The notes under the pieces are model-generated. The model was not told the origin of the DNA. It saw nothing but the letters and a program-made list of their open reading frames with translations, and did no database searches. A DNA stretch of 28,040 bases from a virus. Location: positions 1 through 28,040 of the IMG/VR virus record IMGVR_UViG_3300044639_003174; one strand, written 5' to 3'. Below, piece by piece: positions 5,169-27,737 of the stretch (its first letter is position 1; each line of letters opens with the position of its first letter). Made by a program: the position numbers and the translations under genes.

Positions 5169-5172
5169 GATT

Positions 5173-6042: not shown

Positions 6043-6070
6043 ATACCTATTTTTTGTTAAATAATTTATA

Positions 6071-6114: not shown

Positions 6115-6124
6115 TTATTTTAAA

Positions 6125-6454
6125 TTATTTTGTAGGTTCTACATAAGCATTAATTTCAACTATTAAAGCATCAATCAATGTTATGTTTAAATCTTTAAAG
6201 TCAACTCTGAATCCTTTATCTTCTTTTGTTTTAGGCAACCAACTTGCGTTCATTTCATTGAATAAGTTAATTGCATGAAAATCAGTTGATGCAACTACAT
6301 CAGTTGGTTTTAATGAATATACATTTTGAATAACTGCATTTAAAGTTGTTAATGCTGTTGAAGGAACTTGTTTGTTTAAATCTTTTCCTATTAATTGAGT
6401 TGTTCCAAATCCAAAGATGTGGATTGTACCCCATGTTTTTTCTGTTGTTGCCAT
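6125..6454 (-). CDS. Unknown 109-residue protein, last gene of the virion cluster
   Basis: I do not recognise this protein. It is soluble, with no membrane segment or signal, and alternates beta-type stretches (TIHIFGFGTTQLIG, LNITLIDALIVEINAYV) with helices around residues 33-50. It is 20 bp downstream of the giant repeat spike gene and immediately before a terminator. A small capsid, chaperone or spike-assembly role is possible from position alone. Confidence 0.7.
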   Translation of the reverse strand: MATTEKTWGTIHIFGFGTTQLIGKDLNKQVPSTALTTLNAVIQNVYSLKPTDVVASTDFHAINLFNEMNASWLPKTKEDKGFRVDFKDLNITLIDALIVEINAYVEPTK

Positions 6455-6474
6455 TGTTTTATTTTATTAATTAT

Positions 6475-8190: not shown

Positions 8191-8883
8191 TTAAAATATT
8201 TTTTTACCTATATAAGTTTTATATCCACTATAAATAGCTACAACACCAATTGCACCTAAAACAAAATATAAACTTTTTTTCAGAAAACCTCTATTGTATG
8301 CTCTTTCGTCAATCAGAGTATATGTAAAGGAATTTCCATATAAATTTCTGTCTTTATCAACAAGTTTCATAAACTCATTAAAATCTTTTTGAGTTTGGAA
8401 TACTTGACATCCCGCACTCCACTTGCCTACTTCTTCTGAACTAGTACCCGCTTGATGGATATTAATTCCAAATAAGCCCGTTTTTGATTCTCCATTATTA
8501 AAATCAAGAATAGCATCTCTATTATAGTCAAGAATAACTGTTACGGGTTTGACTTGCACCAAAGCCTTGTATTGACCTTTGTGTAAACCAACTGCGTAAG
8601 CATCTTTATATTGACCTTGTTTTAAAAGTGATGTTCCCAATTTATTCATTGGAGATTTAAGCCAAAAAGTACCCGCATCTGTTGTTACAGAAAAATACTT
8701 TCCATCCCAATCACCATTTGCGTCTTTCCAAAAAACATATATTAAATCATCAAAAGAATTAGGAATTACTGAATTTGAACGAACACCAACTATATTTAGT
8801 TCATAGGGTCTTGTGTTCAACACATAATTATTTGTATCAAAAATTGTTAGTAAAGTTCTAATATTTTTAATTGGTACATCCAT
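8191..8883 (-). CDS. Membrane-anchored L,D-transpeptidase-like wall enzyme
   Basis: This protein is 230 residues. Its core matches the domain in the gene at 1-701: IVGVRSNSV, FDD, TTDAG, QYKALVQVK, GLFGINIHQAG with His143, and KWSAGCQVF with Cys159. His followed by S-x-G-C is the YkuD-type active-site pattern. A C-terminal membrane segment (about 206-222, SLYFVLGAIGVVAIYSG) replaces the peptidoglycan-binding domain of the other copy. The gene lies among virion membrane proteins, so it may act on the cell wall during entry. The enzymatic activity, bond-forming or bond-cutting, is not known. Confidence 0.65.
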   Translation of the reverse strand: MDVPIKNIRTLLTIFDTNNYVLNTRPYELNIVGVRSNSVIPNSFDDLIYVFWKDANGDWDGKYFSVTTDAGTFWLKSPMNKLGTSLLKQGQYKDAYAVGLHKGQYKALVQVKPVTVILDYNRDAILDFNNGESKTGLFGINIHQAGTSSEEVGKWSAGCQVFQTQKDFNEFMKLVDKDRNLYGNSFTYTLIDERAYNRGFLKKSLYFVLGAIGVVAIYSGYKTYIGKKIF

Positions 8884-10296: not shown

Positions 10297-10734
10297 TTAT
10301 TTTTTTCTTGATTTTACAACTAAAATTATAATTGTAAGCAGTAATACTCCCGCACCTACTCCAATACCAATTTTAGCACCCATTGAAAGTCCTTTTTTCT
10401 CCTCTGTTGTAGCTAATGATTTTAACAATGCTTCATCTGTTGCCGAAGGCTTCAAAGAATCTTGCAACATTTTTTCTTGTTTAGCTAAAGCTTCTTGCTG
10501 TGATTTTGGCATTTGTGTTGCTTTTCTCCACATATCATCAAGAGTTCCCGCTTTTTTCATTTCTTTTTTAAGACCCTCTAAAAAGTTAGATTTATCTTCA
10601 TAACATCCATCAGCGTTAAAATAGGCTCTATCCCAAGACAATGGTTCTGCATCGGGAGAAGCATAATTAATCACTTCACCACCCGCATTAGATTTATTTT
10701 CAACTATAATTGGGTTTTTAGTTATAATTTCCAT
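10297..10734 (-). CDS. MEIIT-motif tail-anchored virion protein (145 residues)
   Basis: The protein starts MEIITKNPIIVENK, a motif shared with the genes at 16782-17246 and 18500-19336. It has a FNADGCYED segment, a charged helical middle, and a C-terminal membrane anchor (about 118-141) preceded by KKGLSMGAKIGIGVG and ended by KSRKK. The end-to-end similarity to the other two, with unrelated middles, suggests the ends are targeting or assembly signals. It would sit in the virion membrane with its N-terminus on the other side from the Lys-rich tail. Function is otherwise unknown. Confidence 0.75.
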   Translation of the reverse strand: MEIITKNPIIVENKSNAGGEVINYASPDAEPLSWDRAYFNADGCYEDKSNFLEGLKKEMKKAGTLDDMWRKATQMPKSQQEALAKQEKMLQDSLKPSATDEALLKSLATTEEKKGLSMGAKIGIGVGAGVLLLTIIILVVKSRKK

Positions 10735-11285
10735 GTTTTTAATTTTTTGTTTAATATTTTGTATAAAACAACACCTATTACAACGGTTACTATTATTGCA
10801 ACTGTGTTATCTTTTTGACCACTTCGTAATTTTGCTTCTTTATCTAAATCTTTAAGCTTGTACTTGTCAATGATTGAATTAAGTGTGTTTGCATAGTCTT
10901 TTGATTCTGCATAACCACCTTTTACCAAAGAATCTATTTGCTCTGAATAGTTTCTAGCATTGAACAAACCCGCTTTTGCATATCTCCCTTGTTTTTTTAA
11001 AAAATCCGAATGGTCTTTGATTGAATCTTGAACAGAAGAATATTTTCTAAAATAACTAACTTTATTTGCATCTTTTGGTGTTGGCAAAGCCACTTTATCA
11101 CCTTTCCAAGATGAATCAGCTTTAATCCCAAAATAATTGTTTGCTTTTTCTACCGCATAGCCTTTACCCCATCCACTTTCAAGAATCATTTGAGCCATCT
11201 TTACAGAAGGGAATAAACCCGTTCCTAAAGTAGCTTGAATTACTTCATTTTTATGTTTCTTTATAAAAGTTTCTTGAGGTGTCAT
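10722..11285 (-). CDS. GH73 N-acetylglucosaminidase-type wall hydrolase with C-terminal anchor
   Basis: A wall hydrolase candidate of 187 residues. MAQMILESGWGKG (31-42) carries the catalytic Glu36 of GH73/FlgJ-type glucosaminidases, followed by NNYFGIKADSSWKG and later YSEQIDSLVKGGYAESKDY, both typical of the family. A C-terminal membrane segment (about 160-176, TVAIIVTVVIGVVLYKI) anchors it. It cuts peptidoglycan glycan strands. Placed among tail-anchored virion proteins, it probably acts during entry, comparable in role to the membrane-associated transglycosylase of PRD1 (comparison by role, not homology). It overlaps its downstream neighbour's start by 13 bp. Confidence 0.82.
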   Translation of the reverse strand: MTPQETFIKKHKNEVIQATLGTGLFPSVKMAQMILESGWGKGYAVEKANNYFGIKADSSWKGDKVALPTPKDANKVSYFRKYSSVQDSIKDHSDFLKKQGRYAKAGLFNARNYSEQIDSLVKGGYAESKDYANTLNSIIDKYKLKDLDKEAKLRSGQKDNTVAIIVTVVIGVVLYKILNKKLKTWKL

Positions 11286-11286
11286 A

Positions 11287-11901
11287 TTATTTTACAATAT
11301 TAGCTAAAGTTGTGTAAACATTAGTTGTTTCAAATGTTTGCCCCGATTTTGCACCCGTAGAAATATTTACTTTTCTACCACCATTTGCATAAGTTCCCGT
11401 AGCATAATTTGTCATTGTTTTTTGGTCAATAATAGAAATTTTACCATCATCACCAAATGAAGCTACCATTTTGTTTCCAAAAAACGCTTGAACAATGTTA
11501 CCAAAAGATTCAGCTTTAGGATAAAATCTTGAATAAACAATTTTCAAATTACCGTTTGTAATTCCATTTAGTTTTTTCATGTAAGTAGCACCTAATAAAT
11601 TCCATGCACCCGCTGTCTTTTTACCATACAAACCATCTTCTGCTAATTGCGTACCATTTTTATTTGCATAAATTTGGAAAGCCATTACAGAATTATTATC
11701 TGCTAATTCTTTTGGTCGTGTTACTTTAGTAGAAGGTACTTGTTCTACCTCTACGGGAGTAATTGGCTCTGTTTCTAACATCATTTGTGTTTGAGCATCA
11801 GATTTTGCTTTTTTTACTCTTTTATAAATAACATAGGCAATTCCTAGCACTACTGCTACTGAACCGCCAATTATTAATTTCTTTTTTAAGTCTGCTTTCA
11901 T
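11287..11901 (-). CDS. Membrane-anchored peptidoglycan-binding-like protein
   Basis: In this 204-residue protein a membrane segment at about 8-25 (LIIGGSVAVVLGIAYVIY) is followed by a Lys-rich stop and a Thr/Pro/Glu linker. Residues about 68-105 (SVMAFQIYANKNGTQLAEDG, then LYGKKTAGAWNLLG) resemble a PG_binding_1 fold: hydrophobic core plus D-G-x-Y/F-G-x-x-T. The remainder is beta-rich (NISTGAKSGQTFETT). It lies 1 bp from the GH73 gene, so the two may form a wall-binding and wall-cutting pair on the virion membrane. Confidence 0.6.
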   Translation of the reverse strand: MKADLKKKLIIGGSVAVVLGIAYVIYKRVKKAKSDAQTQMMLETEPITPVEVEQVPSTKVTRPKELADNNSVMAFQIYANKNGTQLAEDGLYGKKTAGAWNLLGATYMKKLNGITNGNLKIVYSRFYPKAESFGNIVQAFFGNKMVASFGDDGKISIIDQKTMTNYATGTYANGGRKVNISTGAKSGQTFETTNVYTTLANIVK

Positions 11902-12107
11902 CTTTTTATAGTTTTTAAGGTTGGAGTTGACATTTTTGCTCTAATCATCTTTTCTGCATGAACACCAACTATTGCTCCTAAAGAAACAACCGCCACTTTT
12001 TTAAATATCCCGTTAATACCAAGATATTTATTGACAACCCAATAAGATAAAATAGCACCCGCTATTGCTCCTATTGGGTTGTTTTTTACATTGTCAACAA
12101 TTTTCAT
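11898..12107 (-). CDS. Small hydrophobic protein, paralog of the 59-residue neighbour
   Basis: Sixty-nine residues with two membrane segments (about 13-29 and 38-52). VKNNPIGAIAGAILSYWVV lines up with VKSNPIASILGAGLTFVAV of the gene at 12115-12294, as does the following KYLGING / KYTSINQ. The last 4 bp overlap the 11287-11901 start. Probably a small structural membrane protein. Confidence 0.7.
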   Translation of the reverse strand: MKIVDNVKNNPIGAIAGAILSYWVVNKYLGINGIFKKVAVVSLGAIVGVHAEKMIRAKMSTPTLKTIKR

Positions 12108-12114
12108 CTGAAAA

Positions 12115-12294
12115 TTATTTTAATTTAACATTATCCAAGTAAGCTGATGCTACACCACCTAATACTGTTAATGCTACTACTTTCCAAGTTTGATTTATAG
12201 AAGTGTATTTTTTCACCGCTACAAATGTTAAACCCGCCCCTAAAATTGAAGCAATAGGATTGCTTTTTACTTTGTTTACTGCTGTTGTTAACAT
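12115..12294 (-). CDS. Small hydrophobic protein (59 residues), tandem paralog
   Basis: ATG at 12292-12294, stop at 12115-12117. It begins MLTTAVNKVKSNPIASILGA and has two membrane segments, ending in YLDNVKLK. Its match to the adjacent 69-residue protein (N-P-I-x-x-I-x-G-A then K-K/N-K-Y) shows a tandem duplication and supports it as a real gene despite its size. Confidence 0.75.
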   Translation of the reverse strand: MLTTAVNKVKSNPIASILGAGLTFVAVKKYTSINQTWKVVALTVLGGVASAYLDNVKLK

Positions 12295-12324
12295 GATATT
12301 TGATTTTAATTGTTACAAATTTAA

Positions 12325-12537
12325 TTATTCTTCCGTAGAAACTGCATTAATAGTTAAAGGTTTATCATTAACTGCATATCTAAATGCACTAATACCTACT
12401 AAAATTGATACTAAAGGCATGATTGCTGACTTTACATCTTTACTTGTTAATAAAGTCATTCCCGCACCTAAAATAAGAATTGATGAACCCGCAATAGTTA
12501 CCATTCTTACACCTTGTTGAACATTTGTGTTTTTCAT
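12325..12537 (-). CDS. Small two-TM membrane protein (70 residues)
   Basis: Seventy residues with membrane segments at about 12-29 (VTIAGSSILILGAGMTLL) and 38-53, and a Glu-rich end (STEE). No family recognised. It has the same size and topology as the neighbouring duplicated pair but no clear sequence match. Likely a virion membrane protein. Confidence 0.65.
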   Translation of the reverse strand: MKNTNVQQGVRMVTIAGSSILILGAGMTLLTSKDVKSAIMPLVSILVGISAFRYAVNDKPLTINAVSTEE

Positions 12538-12555
12538 TTTTGTTGTTTTTAAAAT

Positions 12556-13044
12556 TTATACTCTATATTTAATTTTTGCTTTTTTCAAAATTGCATTAAT
12601 ATAGCCAAGTTCTGTGCTACTCAATTCATTTTGTAAAGTTGCTTCTAATCCCCATTTTGCTCTTGTTATAATATATGGGAAAATATCTCCATTATAGTTT
12701 CTAATGCCAAATGCTTTTTTAAGCATTAAAAAATCCGCATCATTTTTTAACTTTCTAAAAGTTGTGTACAATAATTGTTCATTTGTACCAATATCATTAC
12801 AAGCTGTTTCAATTGCATCTGCCATTGAATAGTAAGCTGAATTAGGATAAGATAATTTTTTAACCTCTTGTGCTGTTAAAATTTCACTTTCAACCTCACT
12901 TTGACCAATTTCAGTACCCGATTTAGGTTTTAAAAAATATTTGTATATAAGATAACCCGCACCGCCAATTACTCCAACTGCAATTACTCCTTTAGCCCAT
13001 TGTGGTAAGTCATTAAATGTTTTTGTTGCTACTTGTTTATTCAT
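12556..13044 (-). CDS. N-anchored protein with annexin-like helical domain
   Basis: This protein of 162 residues has a membrane segment at about 16-34 (WAKGVIAVGVIGGAGYLIYK), then a polar linker. Residues about 74-160 are helical with the pattern AIETACNDIGTNEQLLYTTF, LKNDADFLMLKKAFGIRNY, which resembles an annexin-type repeat: A-x-x..G-T-x-E-x-x-l, n-x-a-D-x, x-F-G-x-R. The resemblance is by eye, and a four-helix bundle unrelated to annexins is possible. The protein would face one side of the virion membrane; its function is not known. Confidence 0.55.
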   Translation of the reverse strand: MNKQVATKTFNDLPQWAKGVIAVGVIGGAGYLIYKYFLKPKSGTEIGQSEVESEILTAQEVKKLSYPNSAYYSMADAIETACNDIGTNEQLLYTTFRKLKNDADFLMLKKAFGIRNYNGDIFPYIITRAKWGLEATLQNELSSTELGYINAILKKAKIKYRV

Positions 13045-13056
13045 TTTTTTGTTTTA

Positions 13057-14901
13057 TTATGTATAAATAATATGGTCTTGAACCGCATTAAATGTACCAT
13101 TTTTAATTAAAGTAATATAATCATTTCCATTTATTCTATAAACTAAATTGTAGTTATGATTTCCTTGGTCTGAAACAATATCATTAGTTGTTGCTGTTGC
13201 TACTTGCACACTTCTAAAGGTTACGTTTTGATTTCCACCTTTAAAAATAGTAGGGAATTGTGTTGACAAATTTATAATATGCTGTACACTTGCTCCACCC
13301 GTATTTTGTAAAACGTAAACACCCATAATCTTTTGTAAGCCCGTAGGAATTGTTAAAGTATTTGTGCCACTATTCCAAACTGTTGCGTCATTAAAATCTA
13401 ATGTCCATAGAGCTGTGCTGTTTCCGTTAACGCTAGTACCGTTAATTGAATCAGCCGTAGTAATTGTCCAAACTGCGTTTAATGTAATTAAATTTTCAAT
13501 TGAACCTTGCATTGTTACAAATGTAAATTGAGAATTATTTAATTGATTGTTTTTAAAATTTCTCAAAGCTGTACCCGATACAGTAAGGAGTGATTCTGCT
13601 AGAAAGGTATTGTTATGAACAATAGAAGCACTTCCATTATTAACAATAATTAAAGTAGATTTAATTAAATTATTGTTTTTAATTGAACCTAAATTAGTTG
13701 TTATACTTGATGAAGAGTTTTTAAAACTATTATACTGAAACACACCACTATTTGTTGCAATATCTACAACTGATAAATCTATAATTTCATTTTGAAAAAT
13801 AGTTGGTAAATAAGATGGGTTTCCAATAACTAAATTGTTATTTATTCCAAAAGTTGATTCTCCACTAACAATGTTATTTTGTACTTCATTATTACCCCAT
13901 TGAAAACTGAAAAAAGCTTCATCAGTCATACCATAAGTTGTAGGATTATTATCAACTTTGTTTAGCCTTTTATCCTCTCTATATTTTATATAATTTGTTG
14001 ATACATCATAAAGAATAAAATCAATTTCTTGAATATATCCGTTTGTTACATTTTTTGCTAAAATAATCCAATTTGTAAAGTCTGAATCGGGTGGTAAAAC
14101 ACCATTTGCACCCGTTAAATTTTTATAGTGGTAATTTCTCCACATACAAACATCATTAGCAACGGGAGTTAAAGCACTTGTCCAAACACCAATATTAGCA
14201 ACAAAACCACTTACACCACTATAATTACCTATTTGTTGATAATCTGCATTTAAAAAAATACCGCTACCTTCTAAAGAAACACCATTAGTTGCTATTCCTT
14301 TTACCATAATTGGCACGGTTTCATTTGCATCAATCAAAAAGATTGCATTACTTATAAGATAATTTTGACCAATTTGAACTGCATTAGTTGAAATTAGTGA
14401 AGATAAGCTTGAGTAAGTAACAGAAATATAATTTATGCCGTTAATGGTTACGGTTACTGCATTTCCAACTGCCGTAGCATTAACTAAAGCACCAACAAAA
14501 TTCATAGAAGTTGTTGTTGGCGAAATAGAAACACCTTCATTAAGTACATCTAAAGCACTTGAAGTTATTTGATAATTAAATTCAGCTAAAAAAGAAGTAT
14601 TGCTTGAAATTCTAACAACACATTCACCATCATTTTGATTAATTGTAACAGATGATTGATTGTTTATTGTGTAGCCACTTGGGGCATTAATTGTAATGTT
14701 ATTTGTTCCCGCATTGGATGAATTATCAACAACATATAGTTTCCATGTAGTATTCCAATAATCTGCGGGTATTTCTAGTAAATTAATAACAACAGCACTT
14801 GCACTTGTATTACATAACAATACAACATCATCAGCGAACAATTGTGGTGTTCCGCTAACAATTCTACTTGGATTTTTATATGTAGTACTAAATAATGCCA
14901 T
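13057..14901 (-). CDS. Large beta-rich spike or fibre, probable beta-helix (614 residues)
   Basis: The N-terminal third is a beta domain with Thr/Asn/Ser-rich strands (TWKLYVVDNSSNAG, VTINQNDGECVVRI). The middle has Trp-rich segments (CMWRNYHYKNLTG). Residues about 340-480 show repeated Asn/Ile/Val turns with N-N-x-x-x (IGNPSYL, YNSFKNSSSS, HNNTFLAES, KNNQLNNSQ), as in pectate-lyase-like right-handed beta-helices. No signal peptide or anchor. With the second spike at 6475-8178 it makes two large candidate host-recognition proteins. Enzyme activity on a polysaccharide is possible, but no catalytic residues can be assigned. Confidence 0.7.
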   Translation of the reverse strand: MALFSTTYKNPSRIVSGTPQLFADDVVLLCNTSASAVVINLLEIPADYWNTTWKLYVVDNSSNAGTNNITINAPSGYTINNQSSVTINQNDGECVVRISSNTSFLAEFNYQITSSALDVLNEGVSISPTTTSMNFVGALVNATAVGNAVTVTINGINYISVTYSSLSSLISTNAVQIGQNYLISNAIFLIDANETVPIMVKGIATNGVSLEGSGIFLNADYQQIGNYSGVSGFVANIGVWTSALTPVANDVCMWRNYHYKNLTGANGVLPPDSDFTNWIILAKNVTNGYIQEIDFILYDVSTNYIKYREDKRLNKVDNNPTTYGMTDEAFFSFQWGNNEVQNNIVSGESTFGINNNLVIGNPSYLPTIFQNEIIDLSVVDIATNSGVFQYNSFKNSSSSITTNLGSIKNNNLIKSTLIIVNNGSASIVHNNTFLAESLLTVSGTALRNFKNNQLNNSQFTFVTMQGSIENLITLNAVWTITTADSINGTSVNGNSTALWTLDFNDATVWNSGTNTLTIPTGLQKIMGVYVLQNTGGASVQHIINLSTQFPTIFKGGNQNVTFRSVQVATATTNDIVSDQGNHNYNLVYRINGNDYITLIKNGTFNAVQDHIIYT

Positions 14902-15977
14902 TATAATAAAACTTTACTATTTCTTGCTTCCTCTATAAACACTTTTTTCAAAGAAACTTGTTTGTAGAAAAAACACATTGTAACGGAATTACCCGCTAAT
15001 ACTTTATAATTTATAACATCCATTCCATCGGGAATAAATGGTCTTCCTAATTGTTTGAACATATCAAAAAACACAATTTCATTTGAAAATTGGTCTGTAT
15101 CAATTTCAAGGTTTAAGTTAATTGGATTAACTCTTTCCATAGCCGTAATCTGTTTATTGTGCGTAAACATAGGCTGTGAAACTTGTTCATTAACATTGAT
15201 ACCGCTAAATGCAAATTTGCAATTTGGTACTAATGTTGGGTTTCCTAAAATGTTAAATAAAACATCTGAATAGCTTACGTTACCGCCACCAACAGCTATT
15301 TTACTATTCAAACTTTGTGAGGTTGAATAAAGATAGTCTAAAGGCATAGATGGGTTAAAAATTTCAACATCAAAGTCAACTCTTGATTGTGTATTGTCAA
15401 AAATTAAAATTAGTTCTTTTAACTTTTCTCCTTTGTAATAACCTATGTTTTTTAAACTATCAGCACTACCCGAAGTGTTTAAAATAAACTTATTGACACC
15501 ATCTATAATTAATGGCATATCTTGAGGTAATTGAACTGACTTAACAACTTGCTGTGTAGCTTCAATAACACCATCTTTTGATATTGTTGGGGTCATTGGA
15601 GGTAAAGAAGTTATTTGTGGCTCTACAATTGGATTAGAAGCATTAGGCAAAGTTCTGCCTTGTGTTAACAATTGATTTGAACTTTGAAACAAACTTGTAT
15701 ATCTACCAACTACGGGTTTAGCTACAATAGGATTTGCTTCAATGGGTTTTGCCACAACGGGCTTTGCCATTACGGGCTTTGCTTTAATTAAATTATTTAC
15801 TTGTGTAAATGATTGTCTAAAGGTTGTTCCATTAATTCCACTAAAATCTAAATCAAAAACAGAAGAATCAAACAACGTAGCGTCATTTGATTTAGGTTTT
15901 GACTGCTTTTTTCCATAATATTTATCACGGATTTGAGCATCAAAGTTTTCATATTCTTCTATTAATGAAAAACTCAT
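14901..15977 (-). CDS. Minor capsid protein, paralog of the candidate major capsid protein
   Basis: This protein has 358 residues. The N-terminal 160 residues are low-complexity, with a Pro-rich arm of about 5-residue period (KPVMAKPVVAKPIEANPIV at 67-85). Residues about 187-337 line up with residues 58-197 of the 22948-23679 protein: LILIFDNTQ with VIQYANTTT, KFAFSG with KWRFQS, PINLNLEIDTDQFSNEIVFF with PLNLSIMRDAYQQQSDII, and PDGMDVINYKVLAG with VDGNTFITFTLIAS. This suggests a shared beta-sandwich, probably a jelly roll. It may occupy special positions such as vertices, with the Pro-rich arm reaching towards the membrane or a spike. It overlaps the fibre gene by 1 bp. Confidence 0.65.
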   Translation of the reverse strand: MSFSLIEEYENFDAQIRDKYYGKKQSKPKSNDATLFDSSVFDLDFSGINGTTFRQSFTQVNNLIKAKPVMAKPVVAKPIEANPIVAKPVVGRYTSLFQSSNQLLTQGRTLPNASNPIVEPQITSLPPMTPTISKDGVIEATQQVVKSVQLPQDMPLIIDGVNKFILNTSGSADSLKNIGYYKGEKLKELILIFDNTQSRVDFDVEIFNPSMPLDYLYSTSQSLNSKIAVGGGNVSYSDVLFNILGNPTLVPNCKFAFSGINVNEQVSQPMFTHNKQITAMERVNPINLNLEIDTDQFSNEIVFFDMFKQLGRPFIPDGMDVINYKVLAGNSVTMCFFYKQVSLKKVFIEEARNSKVLL

Positions 15978-15990
15978 TTGTTAGTTTTAT

Positions 15991-16773
15991 TTAGTTCTTT
16001 TTAGCAAACTGCTCTTTCTCAAATTTATCAATGTAATCATTGATTTTTCTCATGCGTTCCATATTACTTTTAGTTTGAGATTTTAAAAATACATTTGCAA
16101 AAACACAAATAGCATCAATTTTACTAAATCCTAAACCTAAATAAATATACAAAGCATTTATGTCTGCACCAATTTCATTGCCAATTTGTAAACCAATTTT
16201 CGGGTTTCTGAATTTGTGTGAATATTCATGTAAAAGAATAATCACTCGCATTGGAATGGTATAAGCATCAAATTTTGCTTTAGCAACCTCAATTGTACCC
16301 GTAGTGTGCCCAATTCTTGCGGGAGTACTATTAATCTTCCCACTATCACTAATTACACCAAAGAATTTAATATTAAACTCTTTGTCTTTTGAGGAATACA
16401 ATCTTCCATTGTTTGAAGCACTTTCAAACCCACAAACTTGTGAGAATGGAATACACAAATTTAAGAAATTTTTTGTTTCAGCATCTAGCCAAACATTATA
16501 ATCCATCAATTTGCCTTCACTCAATTCAACTTTAAAATCTTTATCTTGTGGGTTTTGAATGTTACCGCAACCAACAAATAAAGTTTTAGGAGAAACGGGA
16601 AAAGAAAAATGAATAGTTCTAGTACCTACAACCTCAATTACTCTATCAGCATATTTGGAGTTCTTTTTTTGTAATTCCTCTGCCCAAATACGAAATTTTT
16701 TAGTACCCGTGCAAGTGATTTTTATAAATAAAGAAAACTTTCTGTTGTCAGAATTATATTTTTCTCCAAACAT
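15991..16773 (-). CDS. Zinc metallopeptidase-like protein (HEYSH...NEIGAD)
   Basis: The protein is 260 residues. HEYSH at 182-186 is an HExxH zinc site, and NEIGAD (Glu200, Asp204) 14 residues later supplies the third ligand of a gluzincin-type site. The preceding half is beta-rich and unrecognised. No signal peptide or membrane segment. It lies inside the virion cluster between the minor capsid protein and a tail-anchored protein, so it may process virion proteins or act on the host surface. The protease fold is well supported by the motif; the substrate is unknown. Confidence 0.68.
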   Translation of the reverse strand: MFGEKYNSDNRKFSLFIKITCTGTKKFRIWAEELQKKNSKYADRVIEVVGTRTIHFSFPVSPKTLFVGCGNIQNPQDKDFKVELSEGKLMDYNVWLDAETKNFLNLCIPFSQVCGFESASNNGRLYSSKDKEFNIKFFGVISDSGKINSTPARIGHTTGTIEVAKAKFDAYTIPMRVIILLHEYSHKFRNPKIGLQIGNEIGADINALYIYLGLGFSKIDAICVFANVFLKSQTKSNMERMRKINDYIDKFEKEQFAKKN

Positions 16774-16781
16774 ATCTTAAA

Positions 16782-17246
16782 TTATTTTTTTGCTTTGTAC
16801 ATTTTGTAACCAACAAAACTTACAAGAGCAACAGCCCCTACAATTAAACCAATTTTTAGTCCTTTTGACATTGGTTTTTTAACATCAGTTGAGCCTCCAA
16901 CAATTGTAACATCAGCGGGTTTTATAGGAGCAACCCAATTTGGATTGTTTTTTGCTTCATAGCTATCCATAGCTTGTTGTAAAGCAAATTGACCAACTTT
17001 AGTTTGACCTAATTCATAAAAGAAGTTTTTAACTTTATCAAAAACTTTTTTGTTTTCTGCTGTTTGAGGTGGTTTTGGTTTACCTATTGCGTTTCCATTC
17101 CCCTCTGCATTTGACATACCATCTTCATAAATGATTGGGTTTTTAGTTGTTTCAACCACTAAAGTGCCATCAGCACCTACAAACATATCTCTTGGAGATT
17201 CTTTCATGCCATCAAAGACAATTGGATTTGAAGTTATAATTTCCAT
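16782..17246 (-). CDS. MEIIT-motif tail-anchored virion protein (154 residues)
   Basis: Starts MEIITSNPIVFDGM, has FVGADGTLVV, and then a second copy of the motif, TTKNPIIYEDGM (about 33-44). The middle is helical and the C-terminus is KKPMSKGLKIGLIVG followed by a membrane segment and YKAKK. It shares its N-terminal and C-terminal ends with the genes at 10297-10734 and 18500-19336. The internal repeat of the motif indicates the module can be duplicated within one protein. Likely a virion membrane protein. Confidence 0.75.
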   Translation of the reverse strand: MEIITSNPIVFDGMKESPRDMFVGADGTLVVETTKNPIIYEDGMSNAEGNGNAIGKPKPPQTAENKKVFDKVKNFFYELGQTKVGQFALQQAMDSYEAKNNPNWVAPIKPADVTIVGGSTDVKKPMSKGLKIGLIVGAVALVSFVGYKMYKAKK

Positions 17247-17257
17247 ATTTATAAATT

Positions 17258-17758
17258 TTAATCTTGTTTTAATTTAATCTTTTGTTTATTTGAATTGTTT
17301 GTTCTAAATACAAAATATGCACCCGCAATAGCACCAACTAAAGCACCATACAGTTTATATTTTGAATCAGATTCACCAATCCAACCTTGTTTTTCAGCTA
17401 CAATTACACCCGTTAAACCTACAACTGCACCAATTAACATTGAATCAATGTATTTTACTTTTGGATTAGTTTCCACTTTTTGTACTTGCATAGGGTTAGG
17501 CATTGTATCTGCTGTGCCCGTAGCATTAGAAACAATCTGTTTAGTGATTACCTCTTTAACTACATACAAAGGTACAACACAAACACCATTTACTAGCAAA
17601 AATGCGGGTTTATTATTTGCGTGTTTAAGTTCACCTCTAACAATTTCTCCTTTACGGAATCTTTTTAATCTAATTTTTTGTGGATTATGTGGCAATCCCG
17701 TAGCTGTAACAACGGGCGACTTAAAATCTTCCACAAAAACATAACTCTTTAGTGCCAT
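17258..17758 (-). CDS. Beta-domain protein with C-terminal two-helix membrane hairpin
   Basis: This 166-residue protein has a basic N-terminal beta-type domain (residues 1-65, with KIRLKRFRKGEIVRGELK), then two membrane segments (about 105-122 and 137-153) and a Lys-rich tail. The 21940-22410 protein has the same plan: beta domain with K-G-x-x-x-x-G, then two hydrophobic segments with GA-x-x-G-AY. The two may be distant paralogs. A long frame on the opposite strand over the same bases is a shadow. Confidence 0.65.
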   Translation of the reverse strand: MALKSYVFVEDFKSPVVTATGLPHNPQKIRLKRFRKGEIVRGELKHANNKPAFLLVNGVCVVPLYVVKEVITKQIVSNATGTADTMPNPMQVQKVETNPKVKYIDSMLIGAVVGLTGVIVAEKQGWIGESDSKYKLYGALVGAIAGAYFVFRTNNSNKQKIKLKQD

Positions 17759-17759
17759 A

Positions 17760-17864
17760 TTAATTTAATTTAATGTTGTTTTTGGCTTTACGCATTTCTT
17801 GATACTGATGGTATATAACTGCACCAATTCCAACTATTGCTAAAATACCTAAAATCTTTCTCAT
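17760..17864 (-). CDS. Small membrane peptide (34 residues)
   Basis: ATG at 17862-17864, stop at 17760-17762; the product begins MRKILGILAIVGIGAVIYHQ and ends in a basic tail with KAKNN. It fits exactly between neighbours, 4 bp after the upstream stop and 1 bp before the next start, which supports it as a gene. It has one membrane segment, like the small structural membrane peptides of PRD1-like and PM2-like viruses (analogy). Confidence 0.65.
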   Translation of the reverse strand: MRKILGILAIVGIGAVIYHQYQEMRKAKNNIKLN

Positions 17865-17868
17865 TTCT

Positions 17869-18498
17869 TTACTTTTTTTTCACCAAAAGAAATCCACCAA
17901 TCATAACACCCGCAACACCTAATGCAATTAATGAAATTTTTAAAATTGGACTCATACCTTTAGGTTGTGATTCTTTAGCTAATTTAATAGCCATTTCATT
18001 ATCTGCTTTTTGTCTTTGTGCTAATTCATAATCAGCTTTTTGTTTTGCTATATCTGAATCTGCTTTTGCTTTAATTGTTTCTGCATCTGCCTTTGCTTTT
18101 GCTAAATCTGATTCTGCTTTTGCTTTGGCTTGTTGCTCTGCTAAAACGGATTCGGGAGTTAAACCTTTATCTGCTAGTTTTTTTTCTGCTTCGGCTTTAG
18201 CTTTAGATTCAATTAAATCACGTTCTTCTTTGGCTTTTTTTTCCTTTAAATCTTGTTCCTCTGCAATTGACAATTGGCTTGTTAAATCTTCTTGTCGTTG
18301 CTTTAAATCAGCAATTTCTTTTTGTTTGTTAGAAGCTAGTTCTTTTCTATTTGACCATTGTTGGGCGTGGTAAGCTGAACGGTCACGTTGAACATACCAA
18401 GCATCTCTAGATGATATTAAAGAATTAAGTTGTGTGTTAAATAATTCTAATTTTTTAACATTGTCTGATATTTCTTTTTGAATTTCTGCTTTTGTCAT
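17869..18498 (-). CDS. Coiled-coil tail-anchored protein (209 residues)
   Basis: Residues about 4-45 and 60-170 form long helices with Ala/Lys/Glu heptads and repeated AKAxAD motifs (LAKAKADAETIKAKADSD), then SQPKGMSPILKISLIALG leads into a C-terminal membrane anchor (about 186-204) and KKK. The KGMS-xxx-K-x-S/G-L-I start of the anchor is shared with the MEIIT-motif proteins. It may be a rod or scaffold extending from the virion membrane. Confidence 0.72.
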   Translation of the reverse strand: MTKAEIQKEISDNVKKLELFNTQLNSLISSRDAWYVQRDRSAYHAQQWSNRKELASNKQKEIADLKQRQEDLTSQLSIAEEQDLKEKKAKEERDLIESKAKAEAEKKLADKGLTPESVLAEQQAKAKAESDLAKAKADAETIKAKADSDIAKQKADYELAQRQKADNEMAIKLAKESQPKGMSPILKISLIALGVAGVMIGGFLLVKKK

Positions 18499-18499
18499 A

Positions 18500-19336
18500 C
18501 TATTTGTTTTTTCTTGATTTATAAATTAAAAAGGCTACTGCTCCAATGAAAAGAACTGAACCACCAACAATTAATGAAAATTTCATTGTTTTTGACATTC
18601 CTTTTTCTGTTTCGGGAGTTGATGATGCTACATCTTCTTTTGCATAAATAACTTCATTACCTCTTTCATCCTTGCCAATTGCAACTTCATCTTCAAAATA
18701 TTCTGTAACTAAAGATTTATTACCTTGAGCATCTGTGTCAACAAATGTTTTGTTTGGGTCAATATCTTTTTTGTCATAAAGATTACCATCTGCTCCCGTT
18801 GTAATATTTTCTTTTGGAATTACAACATCTTGACCTTTATCATCTTTTTTAACATATTTACCATCAGCTCTTTTTTGTGCTTTAGACATCATTTTTGTAT
18901 AGTGTCTATCTTGACGGTTAGCTTCTCTATCACCTCTTCTGTCTTTTCTTCTTGACTGTCTATTTGACCTACGAAGCTGTCTTGCTCCTTTATTAGCTTT
19001 AATTAAGGTTGCAACACTTTTAACACCTTGTCCAATACCTTTTCCAACAAATTTAAAACCTTGTCCAATTTTTTTGAAAAAACCTTTTACACCTTCACCT
19101 TTTGCATTATAATATTCACCATCAAATCCAACGTACAAATCTGCCCCATCAAATTTATGATATGTTTTATTATCACAAGTGTAATATAAGTCTTCATCAG
19201 CATTTCCATCAAAATCAGATATTCTGCCTTCCATGAAATTCAAATTTTCAATATACCCGCTTAAATCTTCACCTAAATTAGTGTCTAATTGTACTTTGTT
19301 TTTGTAAACAATTGGGTTTGAAGTAATTATTTCCAT
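18500..19336 (-). CDS. MEIIT-motif tail-anchored protein with Arg-rich region (278 residues)
   Basis: Starts MEIITSNPIVYKNKV. Residues 45-80 have Tyr/Asp-rich repeats (FDGADLYVGFDGEYYNAKG). Residues 84-115 are Gly/Lys amphipathic (FKKIGQGFKFVGKGIGQGV). Residues 117-156 are very rich in Arg (RRSNRQSRRKDRRGD), a possible DNA-contact region. Residues 160-245 show three loose repeats of a D-x-x-G-N/Q-x-x-x pattern. The end, EKGMSKTMKFSLIVG plus membrane segment plus KSRKNK, is the shared anchor. It could link the genome to the virion membrane. Function is inferred, not recognised. Confidence 0.72.
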   Translation of the reverse strand: MEIITSNPIVYKNKVQLDTNLGEDLSGYIENLNFMEGRISDFDGNADEDLYYTCDNKTYHKFDGADLYVGFDGEYYNAKGEGVKGFFKKIGQGFKFVGKGIGQGVKSVATLIKANKGARQLRRSNRQSRRKDRRGDREANRQDRHYTKMMSKAQKRADGKYVKKDDKGQDVVIPKENITTGADGNLYDKKDIDPNKTFVDTDAQGNKSLVTEYFEDEVAIGKDERGNEVIYAKEDVASSTPETEKGMSKTMKFSLIVGGSVLFIGAVAFLIYKSRKNK

Positions 19337-19337
19337 T

Positions 19338-19973
19338 TTATTTCTTTTTTATTTTATAAATTACAATACCAATAATTGTAACTAAAAGTACACCACCTCC
19401 AACTATTAAAGCTGTTTTAAGATTTTTAGACTGTACCTTTTTAGCTTCAACATCAGCTTGTTTTTTTTGAAGAACGGCATTGATTAATTGTTGTTTTGCG
19501 TCTGCTTGTTTTTGCAAAATATCAATTCCACCTTTAGCTATTTCTTCTTGTTTTCTTTTATTAGCTGTCAACAAATCTGTTGCTCCACTAAATAAACCCG
19601 CAATAGCGGGAATAAAATTAGATTTTGATTCATCAGAGTAATAATTTCTCATTGTTTTATAACAATTTTTTAATGATTCATCATCTATTTCATCAACACC
19701 ATCAAAGTTAACTTTTTTGTTTTTAAGCTGAATTAATAAAGAAGAGCCTAACATTAATTGTTGGTTAAGCGGAATATTAATTACAAATTTTTCAATTAAA
19801 GATATATCTGATTCATCAATTGTAGCTTTTATACCACTTGAATTAAGCAAATCTACAAATTCTTTTTTATTGGTTGTAATAATACCTCCTAATTCTTTCA
19901 ACATCAATTCATGGGCACAAACATAATCTTGTTTGTTCATGCAATTATTAAATTTTGTGTTGAAATCTTCCAT
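19338..19973 (-). CDS. Helical tail-anchored protein (211 residues)
   Basis: The N-terminal half is mixed helical with several Cys. Residues about 120-180 form a Gln/Lys/Ala-rich coiled coil (DILQKQADAKQQLINAVLQ), followed by KNLKTALIVGGGVLLVTIIG as the membrane anchor and KIKKK. It lies 4 bp from the large low-complexity protein gene. No family recognised. Topology matches its neighbours. Confidence 0.72.
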   Translation of the reverse strand: MEDFNTKFNNCMNKQDYVCAHELMLKELGGIITTNKKEFVDLLNSSGIKATIDESDISLIEKFVINIPLNQQLMLGSSLLIQLKNKKVNFDGVDEIDDESLKNCYKTMRNYYSDESKSNFIPAIAGLFSGATDLLTANKRKQEEIAKGGIDILQKQADAKQQLINAVLQKKQADVEAKKVQSKNLKTALIVGGGVLLVTIIGIVIYKIKKK

Positions 19974-19977: not shown

Positions 19978-21918
19978 TTATTTCTTCATTTTGTTAATAA
20001 CAACTATACCAATAATACCTAAAACAGCACCAATACCAACACCAATTAAAGCTGTTGAAGTTGAACTACCATTAAACGCACTATAATCAATTACTTCACC
20101 CATAAATGAACTATTTTCATCTTCCATTATTGTGTTTCCTAAATCATTTTTAAATTCAGAAGGAGTAGTATTTCCTAAACTAATAACTTTTGGGTTAGTG
20201 TTTTGAATTACCATTTGTTTTGGCATTGTTCTTTTCTTGCTAGGTCGCATCATATCACAATAATTAAGCATTTTTTGGATATATTCTCTATTAGCGGGAG
20301 TTTCATAACTTTTTAATTCTCTTAAAAGTTCATTTACTCTATCTACTTTAGCAACATATTCAGCTTTTAATTCTGATTTGTCAACACCTTTTTTCATTTT
20401 TAGCATTTCTGCCATTTCTTTGTTCCATGCAATTTTAGTGCATAAATCTTTTATCATTGTTTCCATAGCGTTTGAATTTGCGTAACCATCAAAAGATGAT
20501 TCAATTTCTGTATCGGGTGCATAATTAGTGTCTATATCTACCATTAACTCATCTTGAGATGGTGAATATCCACTTGAACCTTGTTGCATCATTTGTGCTT
20601 GATTTTCAGCATCAACTTGTGCGTTTAAATCTTCAAGGCTTGTATTGTTTTGCTGTTGACCTCCTCCTTGTTGTTGATATTGAGCCATTTGTTGTGCTTC
20701 AATTTGTGCGTTTAACGCATCTAAATCAGCTGAACTATTTCCACCTCCCGTGTAAACTCCACCACCTTGGTTTGTTCCACCACCTTGATTTGGGTCATAA
20801 TTTCCTACACCTTCGTTTGTTCCTCCACCCGTATTTGTATTATTATAAGTTGTAGTAACTGCGGGTATTAAAGCATATAAAGGAAGCTTAAATTTTACCA
20901 TTGTCATTCCCGTAGCACTTGATTTTGCTTGTGGGGTAGCACTTGGGTTAGGTGATGTTTGTGTTCCCGTAGATGTGCCACTTGATGTACCTACACTTGT
21001 GGCTGTACCACCCGATGTAGCTGTTCCCGTTGCTGTTCCACTTGATGCTGTGCTTGAAGCAACATTAGTAGCGGGTACATTTGATGGGTTATTACTTGGA
21101 GAAGCTGTTGTTGTACTTGCATTTCCAACAGTTGTTGGAACTTCTGCTTGAACAACCCAATATCCACTTTTACCACCCGTTGTTGGGTTGTCAAAAGTTT
21201 GTAAATAACCTTCTAAAATTGAATCTTTTAAAAACTTTTTACTTGCAAAAGCACCATCTCTTTGTCCAAAAACATCATTAACAACTTTATAAAATCCTTG
21301 AAATAAAGGCATCAATGGTTTGTCATCTGTGTATCTTGATATTGGAGATGGGGTTAAAGTTGCAATTGTGTCTAAATATACACTTCCCGTTGTTCCCGTT
21401 GTTGCTCCCGTTGTTGTTCCCGTTGTTGTTTCCGTTGTTGTTCCCGTTGTTGTTGGTGCTATTGGGTTTATAGGCAAGGATGTTGCCATTAAATTAGTTG
21501 CAACATCTTTTGTCATAGTAGGAAATCCAATGTATGTTGCACCATCTTCAATCAATACTAATTTTACTTCAATAGGTTTTCCATTTAAAACTTTATAACT
21601 TCTAACCATTTTTAATGGTGTATCAGTTGGAAATGATTTTGAACCACCTCCTACTTTTTGCATAGTTACTGCGGTTTGACCATAAATTTTAAGAATTTTA
21701 TAATCTCTTGGGGCATCAGTTACAATGGGTAAATTAGCTGTTGCAGATGTTGAAGCTACTCCTAAAGCATCTAATTGGGCTTGAGTAAGAGTAAAGTTTG
21801 AAAATTTTTGTTTTCCTTTTTTGCCATTATAACCACCAAAAGCTTCCTCAAAAGAAGCTGAACTTCTAGTAACTTTAACACCACTAGACCCTAATTGTAT
21901 AACTCTTGCGTTTTGCAT
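19978..21918 (-). CDS. Large low-complexity tail-anchored virion protein (646 residues)
   Basis: The N-terminal about 150 residues are a beta-type domain (YKILKIYGQTAVTMQKVGG). Residues about 155-185 are Thr/Gly (TTTGTTTETTTGTTTG); 265-330 are Ser/Thr/Gly/Ala; 355-450 are Gly/Gln/Asn (TNQGGGVYTGGGN). A helical region follows (about 480-560, NAMETMIKDLCTKIAWNKEM) and the C-terminus ends with STALIGVGIGAVLGIIGIVV and NKMKK as an anchor. Such linkers suit a long flexible arm. Opposite-strand and other-frame reading frames over the repeats are by-products of the low complexity. Confidence 0.7.
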   Translation of the reverse strand: MQNARVIQLGSSGVKVTRSSASFEEAFGGYNGKKGKQKFSNFTLTQAQLDALGVASTSATANLPIVTDAPRDYKILKIYGQTAVTMQKVGGGSKSFPTDTPLKMVRSYKVLNGKPIEVKLVLIEDGATYIGFPTMTKDVATNLMATSLPINPIAPTTTGTTTETTTGTTTGATTGTTGSVYLDTIATLTPSPISRYTDDKPLMPLFQGFYKVVNDVFGQRDGAFASKKFLKDSILEGYLQTFDNPTTGGKSGYWVVQAEVPTTVGNASTTTASPSNNPSNVPATNVASSTASSGTATGTATSGGTATSVGTSSGTSTGTQTSPNPSATPQAKSSATGMTMVKFKLPLYALIPAVTTTYNNTNTGGGTNEGVGNYDPNQGGGTNQGGGVYTGGGNSSADLDALNAQIEAQQMAQYQQQGGGQQQNNTSLEDLNAQVDAENQAQMMQQGSSGYSPSQDELMVDIDTNYAPDTEIESSFDGYANSNAMETMIKDLCTKIAWNKEMAEMLKMKKGVDKSELKAEYVAKVDRVNELLRELKSYETPANREYIQKMLNYCDMMRPSKKRTMPKQMVIQNTNPKVISLGNTTPSEFKNDLGNTIMEDENSSFMGEVIDYSAFNGSSTSTALIGVGIGAVLGIIGIVVINKMKK

Positions 21919-21939: not shown

Positions 21940-22410
21940 TTATTTAGATGGTGTTACCACTACTTTTTTTGACCAATCAAAAATGTATGCACCTAAATAA
22001 CCCGCTACTGCACCAACACCAATGTACATAGCTACTTTTTTCATGTCGTGTTTTTTGTATTTAGCATAGCCAAATCCCGCAATTGCACCAATAACTAGAC
22101 CCATTTTTTTAGTTCTGTTAAATGATTCAGCGGGTAATAAATCAACAACTGTTGGTGTTGTTTGACCATCTGCTCCTAATGTAATTTCTCTTGTATTCAT
22201 AGGTTCTATGTTTTTTAAAAATAATAATTCTTTGTTGTTTGTTTCAAAAAGTCTGTAAGTAAATGGTGCTCCTCTTCTCAATCCATCAATTACTTTAACA
22301 TCACCACTAATTTCTGTTCCTTTTGGAATTATTGAATTAGTTTCAACAAAGTTTTTATGCTCTGTGTTTGGTATTAAAATTTTTGAATCTTGAATAGTAA
22401 TTGCATCCAT
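21940..22410 (-). CDS. Beta-domain protein with two-helix membrane hairpin (156 residues)
   Basis: An N-terminal beta domain (MDAITIQDSKILIPNTEHKN, then IPKGTEISGDVKV) is followed by TLGADGQTTPTVV and two membrane segments (about 103-118 and 127-144) with a short Lys-rich end. It resembles the 17258-17758 protein in plan. It contains a G-A-D-G motif also seen in two of the MEIIT-type proteins. Probable virion membrane protein. Confidence 0.68.
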   Translation of the reverse strand: MDAITIQDSKILIPNTEHKNFVETNSIIPKGTEISGDVKVIDGLRRGAPFTYRLFETNNKELLFLKNIEPMNTREITLGADGQTTPTVVDLLPAESFNRTKKMGLVIGAIAGFGYAKYKKHDMKKVAMYIGVGAVAGYLGAYIFDWSKKVVVTPSK

Positions 22411-22886: not shown

Positions 22887-22922
22887 ATAAAAAAAGGGCG
22901 GAGCATTATTGCTCTGCCCTTC
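22887..22922 (-). terminator. Strong intrinsic terminator after the capsid gene
   Basis: Stem AAGGGCAGAGCA / TGCTCCGCCCTT on the minus strand (22894-22921) with loop ATAA and one G-T pair, followed by seven T. It is the clearest terminator in the window, 26 bp after the stop of the major capsid candidate. Confidence 0.85.
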
Positions 22923-22947: not shown

Positions 22948-23679
22948 TTATCCTGTAATTCCTTTAACCGCTTGAGAAGTTTGGATGATTACGGGAGCAA
23001 CATTTTTACCGCTTAATCGTGGAGCACGAGCAGTATTTAAATCTTGACCTCCGTTTAATACAGCCAATCCACTTAATACAGACACTGGGAACATAGAGAT
23101 TACTAATGTAGCACTTGCAATTAATGTGAAAGTAATAAAAGTATTACCATCAACAGAAACGGGGCGAGTTACATCAATAATATCTGATTGTTGCTGATAA
23201 GCATCACGCATAATAGACAAGTTCAATGGAACTGTTTGTACTTTACCATTTGCATCAACGTGATTGATAGACAATGTTTGTTGCAATTGAGTAGATGTTG
23301 AAGATTGGAATCTCCATTTACCAATTTTGAAGAATTTGTTATTTGATTGTGCAATCAAACGACCGTAAGTACCACCTTGTAAGTTAGTAATTACAACAGC
23401 TACGGGGTTACCATAGTTAGTTGAACCGAAATAATCATTGTAACCAAATAAAATAGCAGTAACATTAGCAGTTGTAGTGTTAGCATATTGGATTACATAA
23501 GGGTCAGATACATTCATTGTATTTGAACCTCCACTTGCGTAAGAGAAGTCATCACCATCAAATGAAGATGAATCATCAAAATAAGACATATCACCTTCGT
23601 AAGAATCGTAAGAATCAAATCCACTCATTCTTTCAGTACCGCTGATATAACCATGTAGTTCTTTTTCTACCTTGTTCAT
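22948..23679 (-). CDS. Candidate major capsid protein (243 residues)
   Basis: The first 57 residues are acidic, Ser/Asp/Tyr/Gly-rich and probably disordered (SYDSYEGDMSYFDDSSSF). Residues 58-200 are a beta-rich domain of about eight strands (VIQYANTTT, VTAILFGYN, PVAVVITNL, KWRFQS, QQTLSINHV, PLNLSIM, FITFTLIAS, LVISMF), of jelly-roll size. A C-terminal arm includes APRLSGKNVAP. Its own promoter-like site, long leader and strong terminator, plus more GC-rich codons than its neighbours, suggest high expression. The 14901-15977 protein shares the domain. The major capsid assignment is inferred, and the family is not one I recognise. Confidence 0.68.
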   Translation of the reverse strand: MNKVEKELHGYISGTERMSGFDSYDSYEGDMSYFDDSSSFDGDDFSYASGGSNTMNVSDPYVIQYANTTTANVTAILFGYNDYFGSTNYGNPVAVVITNLQGGTYGRLIAQSNNKFFKIGKWRFQSSTSTQLQQTLSINHVDANGKVQTVPLNLSIMRDAYQQQSDIIDVTRPVSVDGNTFITFTLIASATLVISMFPVSVLSGLAVLNGGQDLNTARAPRLSGKNVAPVIIQTSQAVKGITG

Positions 23680-26894: not shown

Positions 26895-27737
26895 TTATTT
26901 GTTTCCATAATATTGGTCAAAATATTGTCTTGATTGACCTTTAATTGCTTCCTCTTGAGTACAACTATTCATTTCTCTATACTCCTTAATTTCACGTTTG
27001 TTAAGCTTTAAATATTGGGCTGACGCATCTAGAAATTCTTTTTTAGTGAATTTACCCTCAATTTTGTTTGCAAAGTTATGTATGTAAACATAGAATCTTT
27101 TATCACCATTGAAATACCTATTGTTAACAATGTTTTGTGCTATTTTGTATAAAGTTGGATTTGTAACCTTATTTTTAATATCATTTACATTATCTGCTTG
27201 GTAGTGCATACGCACCCATCTAGCATTTTGCCAAATTCTTGGCTCAACGGGTCTTAATGATTGATAAGAAATTAAAATATCTACTGCTCGGTGTCTTAAA
27301 TTTACTAATCCACCAACAATTTCTTCCATGTGAGTTACATTTAAGATATAAGTGTTAATATCCTCAAGTACTAACATTCCATTTCTGAAATATCTAATAC
27401 AATATTCAATAATTTCTTTTTTCTCTTTTAACCCAACATTTTTAGCATCAATTCTTCTGCAATCTCCACCCGCTGTTTTTGACCAATCGGGAATATCTTT
27501 TAATGCAATTAATTTTGGTGAGAAATCAGCAACATCATTTCTAGTAAATTGTTCTTTTGTATATTCACCATTTGTGTCCATGATAAGGCATTTTCTTCCT
27601 CTTACTTTATTGTAAAATTTATCTTTTACATAGTCAGCAATAATGTGCATATTTAAGTAAGTTTTACCAACTCCTTGAACACCCGTTAATACCATCATTC
27701 CCGCTTCTCTTTGAGATTTTGGTGCTGTTTCTTTCAT
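26895..27737 (-). CDS. HerA/FtsK-like genome packaging ATPase (280 residues)
   Basis: Walker A GVQGVGKT (19-26), KCLIMDTNGEY as the strand/loop typical of the HerA-FtsK group, Walker B GMLVLEDIN (120-128), and VDILISYQSLRPVEPRIW with Gln159 as the sensor-type position. Short length and lack of a nuclease domain exclude a large terminase. This type packages DNA in tailless, membrane-containing viruses. It lies just downstream of the gene at the right edge and upstream of a two-TM protein. A filamentous-phage Zot-like ATPase is a possible alternative, but the rest of the gene set does not fit that. Confidence 0.78.
   Translation of the reverse strand: MKETAPKSQREAGMMVLTGVQGVGKTYLNMHIIADYVKDKFYNKVRGRKCLIMDTNGEYTKEQFTRNDVADFSPKLIALKDIPDWSKTAGGDCRRIDAKNVGLKEKKEIIEYCIRYFRNGMLVLEDINTYILNVTHMEEIVGGLVNLRHRAVDILISYQSLRPVEPRIWQNARWVRMHYQADNVNDIKNKVTNPTLYKIAQNIVNNRYFNGDKRFYVYIHNFANKIEGKFTKKEFLDASAQYLKLNKREIKEYREMNSCTQEEAIKGQSRQYFDQYYGNK

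Follow-up and report, generated by a model that had tools for sequence, protein, structure and literature searches.

A shared leader, six-residue motif and membrane anchor on otherwise unrelated predicted virion proteins of an undescribed phage group

We analyzed IMG/VR record IMGVR_UViG_3300044639_003174, whose entire 28,040-base length is the window referred to below, and found that three of its genes encode "bookend" proteins (A, B and D) that share an N-terminal leader and a C-terminal transmembrane (TM) anchor around unrelated middles. The architecture recurs in related contigs together with a six-residue motif, which is also carried by the N-terminal arms of both predicted capsid proteins. 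The three parts, their statistical reality, the sharing with capsid proteins and the conserved catalytic residues of a zincin metalloprotease encoded nearby are read from sequence; targeting, cleavage, the bond cut and the zincin as the enzyme are what we infer from them. The best explanation, held tentatively and at a little short of even confidence, is that these are virion proteins on a sorting-and-maturation code in an undescribed phage with single jelly-roll capsid proteins and probably an internal membrane.

Conserved ends and free middles

Open reading frames were taken as the longest ATG frames. With the window's ATPase gene as query, 15 related IMG/VR contigs were obtained (L001-L015, here G001-G015), and with its metalloprotease gene three more (L110, L117 and L118, here G016-G018), two of which are distant (36-42% identity). 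These 18 relatives span 22 to 169 kb, and counts over 19 contigs include the window. Because the contigs are fragments related by descent, site counts are not independent.

The initial annotation had described three genes that start MEIIT[KS]NPI[IV] and end in near-identical membrane anchors with a Lys/Arg tail. The start and the tailed anchor, which is of a G[ML]S/PMS type, were borne out, but the anchors are only similar, with 36-39% ungapped DNA identity over their last 96 bases. Their middles are unrelated, as had been proposed: pairwise BLAST matches lie at the ends only (A and D at residues 1-14, E 1e-4; B and D over the last ~40 residues, E 8e-5), and nothing below E 0.1 was found among the middles. 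Its further claims of a second leader copy in protein B (TTKNPIIYEDGM), of a GADG sequence recurring at residues 24-27 of B and as LGADG in the conserved membrane protein at 21940-22410, and of a coiled-coil protein sharing the anchor end alone (BLAST with D, E 0.002, confined to the anchor) also held.

Across the 19 contigs, the leader pattern opens 34 of 2148 proteins, as compared to 9 occurrences after 7406 internal methionines, and 31 of these 34 also carry a C-terminal TM segment, a feature of 16.8% of all proteins. Conservation of ends and middles was compared in the related genomes, and the ends scored far above composition-matched shuffles while the middles did not: median z values at the N-terminus, middle and C-terminus were 6.9, 0.1 and 7.2 for pairs of leader proteins within a genome and 3.5, 0.4 and 5.9 for pairs between genomes. 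The N-terminal score is partly circular because the leader pattern picked the protein set; the C-terminal score comes from a set not selected on C-end sequence. A G[ML]S signature preceding the TM segment was present in 18 of 28 leader proteins (1.5 expected), 13 of 51 proteins with the motif only and 5 of 122 other anchored proteins. Helical, low-complexity membrane proteins might look alike through composition or chance, as this A+T-rich genome encodes proteins rich in Lys, Ile, Ser and Asn; however, control anchored proteins gave shuffle-corrected scores near 0, and we rejected this source of the similarity, now of negligible probability, on the shuffle controls, the motif enrichment described below and the G[ML]S counts. 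The bookend architecture is, on these comparisons, almost certainly real.

The distant relatives keep the architecture with a different leader and anchor, homogenized within the genome. In G017, the leader reads M..LDLLNAxGLDES[FI]SxAxG, still ending in [FYI]S[DNQ]A[IG]G, and five genes at 1330-7405 end in a nearly constant KFLGMPKA[IV]GITVA[IV]VGGLAL[IV]VGGIFLVKK[LI]RK with 85-95% DNA identity, although several of their middles are unrelated and some are shared. Judged by that identity, these anchor ends are products of recent gene conversion or end duplication, and because leader and anchor differ from those of the window yet are homogenized, the ends are uniform inside a genome and replaceable between genomes. 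Duplication or gene conversion thus occurs in the group, which would suit plain paralogy, in which an ancestral anchored protein was duplicated, its middles diverged or were swapped, and the ends persist as relics or generic membrane-insertion signals without shared binding or processing. We consider this highly improbable: the motif is also found in the capsid proteins, which are not paralogs of the anchored proteins; leader residues are kept while codons differ (B and D are identical at 10 of 11 residues with 4 synonymous differences); and leaders and anchors change jointly between lineages. A recent DNA-level duplication is likewise unsupported for the ends in the window, given the low DNA identity of the anchors and the synonymous leader differences. 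Between the window and its sister G001 (94-96% DNA identity along the shared stretch), synonymous and nonsynonymous changes were too few for a selection test comparing the ends with the middle (N-terminus 2/2, middle 20/19, C-terminus 11/5).

Two conserved membrane proteins, at 21940-22410 and 17258-17758 (minus strand), have a leader-like first strand (ITIQDSKILIPN; FVEDFKSPVVTA), after which come a region that is small and probably beta-rich, a GADG/SNATG motif and the TM segments. A domain of this kind may be the source of the leader; the match between the two proteins is weak (BLAST pieces at E 0.016 and 0.045; hhalign probability 2.5%). A secretion signal was considered for the leader and rejected, as the leader is short and not hydrophobic.

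A motif shared with the capsid proteins

The recurring GADG is a degenerate copy of (acidic)-[FYM]-S-x-[A/hydrophobic]-x-G-(basic). In C-terminally anchored proteins, the strict form [FY]S.A.G was found at 51 sites in 39 proteins where 1.0 was expected, and the reversed motif at none. The broad form has 109 sites in 80 proteins, of which 73 lie within the first 60 residues and 10 lie 30 residues or fewer from a TM segment; its flanks are 12-44% acidic at positions -1 to -12 and 16-34% basic at +6 to +15. Constraint is wholly N-terminal of the Gly, as in prohead-type sites that are cut after the motif. Tandem copies are spaced by 7-8 residues, and in proteins of G004, G005, G006, G007, G008 and G010 the leader is fused directly to the motif (MISVETTNPVYSNANG, MNIITDKPVIFSNAEG). 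At the position of the long anchored protein at 19978, the related contigs encode Arg-rich proteins (cluster 24) in which an N-terminal EEAFGEFSEARG-RGRARR places the motif before a basic region, often with a second copy immediately before the TM segment.

The motif is common to the anchored proteins and the N-arms of both capsid proteins, which are homologous to one another (hhalign probability 92.8%, E 4e-7). Residues A48 and G50 never vary in capsid protein 1, whose arm is predicted to be disordered to residue 58; its jelly roll, for which only the core of the model is confident and only weak fold matches were obtained, begins at residue 60, ~10 residues past the motif. In capsid protein 2, the invariant residues are F45, S46 and G50, and the rest of the arm is variable in length and sequence. 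The motif is very probably functional.

Some further features of the capsid genes were observed. The arm of capsid protein 1 contains tandem octapeptide-like copies (e.g., MSYFDNDD-MSYFDNDD-MSYASG in G008), only the last of which fits A-x-G. Extra armless, motif-free copies of its jelly roll are encoded in G005 (10765-11370) and G015 (103573-105080) and are perhaps vertex or minor capsid proteins. A strong hairpin with a 12-bp stem at 22894-22921, directly 3' of the capsid protein 1 gene, resembles a terminator on either strand and may keep capsid mRNA at a high level.

Proposed cleavage, possible docking and the candidate protease

The initial annotation proposed a bookend cassette with a free center, and as anatomy this holds across the relatives. 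For the N-terminal end, a cleavable capsid-targeting propeptide is a better reading than the membrane-orientation signal that it suggested, because the motif is also in the capsid proteins, many leaders end at the motif and a zincin is encoded in the same block; the membrane role would better be assigned to the anchor. In the proposed mechanism, a lineage-specific leader (here MEIITxNPIV) would bring the precursor to the assembling particle and would end at a processing site, (D/E)-[FYM]-S-x-[A/hydrophobic]-x-G, of the type found in both capsid arms. The phage-encoded zincin would cut this site, so that capsid and internal proteins would lose their acidic propeptides at one stage, and the anchor (G[ML]S-xxxK-hydrophobic-KR) would retain the processed protein, whose middle is often basic, at the particle membrane. 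On this scheme, the central part would consequently be free to change.

The zincin gene lies between the capsid genes and is present in every relative that contains the block. Its HExxH...E..AD residues (H182, E183, H186, E200 and D204) are invariant in 15 sequences down to 36% identity, and its model (pLDDT 93) comprises an N-terminal beta-sandwich/CBM-like domain and a C-terminal half closest to selecase (PDB 4qhf; TMt 0.54, 21% identity, a weak foldseek E of 0.05); the only Pfam matches were M56 (0.024) and SprT (0.21). It is the sole protease recognized in the virion block. Profiles for S78 (PF04586), S77 (PF03420) and adenoviral C5 (PF00770) each matched 0 of 12 contigs, the first while matching control genomes and the second with one control genome matched below the curated cut-off; the C48 profile (PF02902) matched neither contigs nor controls and is hence uninformative. 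That this zincin cuts the motif is possible on such evidence, though we would rate it somewhat below an even prospect. The site might instead be a propeptide code cut by another protease, of the host or an unrecognized phage gene, with the zincin serving as an entry enzyme or minor capsid protein; its beta-sandwich/CBM-like N-domain would suit such a role, and the P1'-type specificity of zincins fits the site poorly. We find this improbable, as no other protease was recognized (no C5, S78 or S77 match in 12 contigs) and as the zincin gene, located between those for the capsid proteins, matches them in breadth of conservation.

The strongest rival to cleavage is an uncleaved docking peptide, in which [FY]S.A.G and the MEIIT-type strand would bind an inner-capsid groove also used by the capsid arms, stapling the membrane vesicle to the shell. 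The presence of the motif in both capsid arms and membrane proteins would be expected of such a code, tandem copies at 7-8 residue spacing would suit avidity, and the arms of capsid protein 1 hold octapeptide repeats (e.g., DDMSYFDN-DDMSYASG). There is also precedent in the vertical single-barrel viruses HCIV-1 and HHIV-2, where the N-terminal residues of one of the capsid proteins are found beneath the neighboring barrel and a role in positioning capsomers has been proposed for C-terminally anchored proteins (PMC6414509). However, docking alone does not predict the charge asymmetry, the position at the border of disordered arm and folded domain, or a conserved protease gene in the block, and we regard it as unlikely, if the most serious of the alternatives. 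For the motif as a cleavage site our confidence is slightly better than even.

Several points weigh against cleavage by the zincin. The strongest objection concerns specificity. In thermolysin-type zincins, selection is usually for the residue that follows the cleaved bond (a hydrophobic P1'), yet the constraint stops at Gly; the cut may therefore precede F/Y/M or A, or the zincin may not be the enzyme. The motif is also found in some proteins in mid-sequence or 11-18 residues ahead of the TM segment, where cutting would free the body from its anchor. In the window, the copies in A (YFNADG) and D (YYNAKG) are degenerate, and in G017 and G018 the capsid-like protein adjoining the zincin lacks an N-arm. 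The fullest statement of the proposal is rather less likely than not: that an undescribed single-jelly-roll membrane phage lineage may mature its virion with a zincin for which a single six-residue code is the signal in capsid, membrane and basic core proteins alike, with a per-lineage leader and anchor, uniform in each genome, that allow freely exchangeable cargo.

Virus group, neighboring genes and known systems

Table 1. Features of the window (all on the minus strand)
Feature	Coordinates	Strand	Details
Bookend protein A	10297..10734	-	145 aa; leader MEIITKNPII 10705-10734
A, motif variant	10606-10623	-	YFNADG
A, anchor	10300-10404	-	KKGLSMGAKIGIGVG...KSRKK (KGLSMGAKIGIGVG...KSRKK); one TM helix and K/R tail
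Capsid protein 2	14901..15977	-	358 aa; DxDFSxxxG motif, FSGING 15828-15845
Candidate maturation protease	15991..16773	-	Beta-sandwich and minigluzincin-like zincin
Zincin residues	16216-16230; 16174-16176; 16162-16164	-	HEYSH; third ligand E200; D204
Bookend protein B	16782..17246	-	154 aa; leader MEIITSNPIV 17217-17246
B, FVGADG	17166-17183	-	GADG at residues 24-27
B, second leader copy	17127-17153	-	ETTKNPIIY
B, motif	17100-17117	-	MSNAEG
B, anchor	16785-16880	-	KKPMSKGLKIGLIVG...KAKK (KPMSKGLKIGLIVG...YKAKK); one TM helix and K/R tail
Coiled-coil protein	17869..18498	-	Anchor end only, 17872-17964 (PKGMSPILKISLIALG...VKKK; KGMSPILKISLIALG)
Bookend protein D	18500..19336	-	278 aa; leader MEIITSNPIV 19307-19336; Arg/Lys-rich middle
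D, motif variant	19097-19114	-	YYNAKG
D, anchor	18503-18607	-	EKGMSKTMKFSLIVGG...KSRKNK (KGMSKTMKFSLIVGG...KSRKNK); one TM helix and K/R tail
Conserved anchored protein	19338..19973	-	KNLKTALIVGGG...KIKKK; several orthologs with FSNAGG/YSNAGG-type motifs
Long anchored protein	19978..21918	-	YSAFNG 20068-20085, immediately before TM
Conserved membrane protein	21940..22410	-	Leader-like first strand (MDAITIQDSKILIPN); motif variant LGADG
Capsid protein 1	22948..23679	-	243 aa; disordered acidic N-arm, residues 1-58; predicted jelly roll, residues 60-201
Capsid protein 1, motif	23530-23547	-	FSYASG, in DDFSYASG just ahead of jelly roll
Packaging-type ATPase	26895..27737	-	Weak HerA/DUF87 similarity

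The window has no terminal repeats, and a terminal-repeat check identified no closed genome among the contigs tested; nearly all of its genes are on the minus strand. We found no relatives among 50,697 cultured-phage records (INPHARED), in PHROGs or in GTDB genomes (one per species), and a Bacteroidota-type promoter pattern occurred in the sequence only at chance level. The window represents part of the genome of a previously undescribed phage. Ortholog clustering delineates a conserved virion block of capsid proteins 1 and 2, the metalloprotease, several TM proteins and the bookend proteins, and one contig has a DnaB helicase among its replication genes. The group is probably membrane-containing, and it is plausible that the bookend proteins belong to a predicted internal virion membrane because of their context: two homologous jelly-roll capsid proteins, many TM proteins and a weakly HerA-like ATPase (DUF87/HerA at E 0.0039, a weak match that falls short of the cut-off; no PDB relative found).

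Other genes of the window were noted by eye. At 3503-5168 (minus strand), adjoining nucleotidyltransferase-like (GRWQPLHDGHKELF), P-loop kinase-like (GQPNSGKTTLW) and sulfotransferase-like (PRSGSTLLQNILAQNP) genes are possibly a phage sulfation cassette; G016 (L110) also has sulfotransferase- and kinase-like genes. At 6475-8178 (minus strand), a 567-aa NTASGxxSTISGG-repeat protein that resembles YadA-type adhesin heads, and is likely a fiber or spike, recurs in G005, G016 and G017. Two diverged copies of a NIVGVR...GxxAxGLHxGQYxAL protein are encoded at 3-701 and 8191-8883 (minus strand), one with a peptidoglycan-binding-like N-terminus and the other with a C-terminal TM segment.

The closest functional parallel is with T4, whose internal proteins IPI, IPII and IPIII are diverse, often basic, and alike only in a capsid targeting sequence (CTS), with 10 residues from IPIII sufficient for incorporation; the CTS directs these proteins to the prohead interior and is cut off by the maturation protease gp21, which also cuts shell proteins (PMC9026906, PMC3012670). 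In the group described here, too, a short N-terminal leader is common to otherwise unrelated virion proteins and ends, like a T4-type propeptide, in a consensus also found in capsid proteins. T4, however, is tailed, gp21 is a serine protease and the internal proteins are soluble, whereas here there are a C-terminal membrane anchor, a single jelly-roll capsid and a zincin as candidate protease, with no match to gp21/S77 or HK97-type S78 proteases in 12 contigs, and targeting and cleavage are proposed. The jumbo phage SPN3US has a protease, gp245, that reads an AXE motif at repeated sites in propeptides (PMC10052503). The likeness lies in a P-side consensus in capsid and internal proteins, N-terminal propeptides and several motif copies per propeptide, but the SPN3US enzyme is a tailed-phage prohead protease and its motif is AXE rather than [FYM]SxAxG.

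Members of Singelaviria/Helvetiavirae (P23-77, SH1, HHIV-2 and HCIV-1) have two single jelly-roll capsid proteins, an arrangement predicted with weak fold matches for the present group, and, like it, many small TM proteins; C-terminally anchored TM proteins have been proposed to organize their capsomers (PMC6414509). They differ in that no sequence match was found and in that the present group has contigs as large as 169 kb, capsid arms that are long, disordered and motif-bearing, and a zincin in the block. In core maturation of the adenovirus/poxvirus type, one short Gly-containing motif occurs in capsid, membrane and basic core proteins, a distribution similar to that seen here, but no C5-type protease was found in the 12 contigs searched, and motif and hosts differ. 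Poxviruses encode a predicted metalloprotease, G1 (PMC1420270). The resemblance would be at most convergence. Selecase and the minigluzincins share with the modeled zincin HExxH, a downstream Glu and a compact catalytic half, whereas the phage protein has the extra N-terminal beta-sandwich domain and a virion-block context.

If the proposed mechanism is correct, the group would offer a second, independent answer to the question, met in T4 by the CTS, of how one address tag loads and trims many unrelated virion proteins, and would place such a code in a tailless membrane-type phage with a metalloprotease. It would also represent a compact, naturally occurring code by which membrane-anchored cargo is loaded into phage particles, and the homogenized ends of G017 show that it is kept uniform inside one genome. 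With the motif, virion proteins of the group, which is uncultured, can be recognized from sequence alone.

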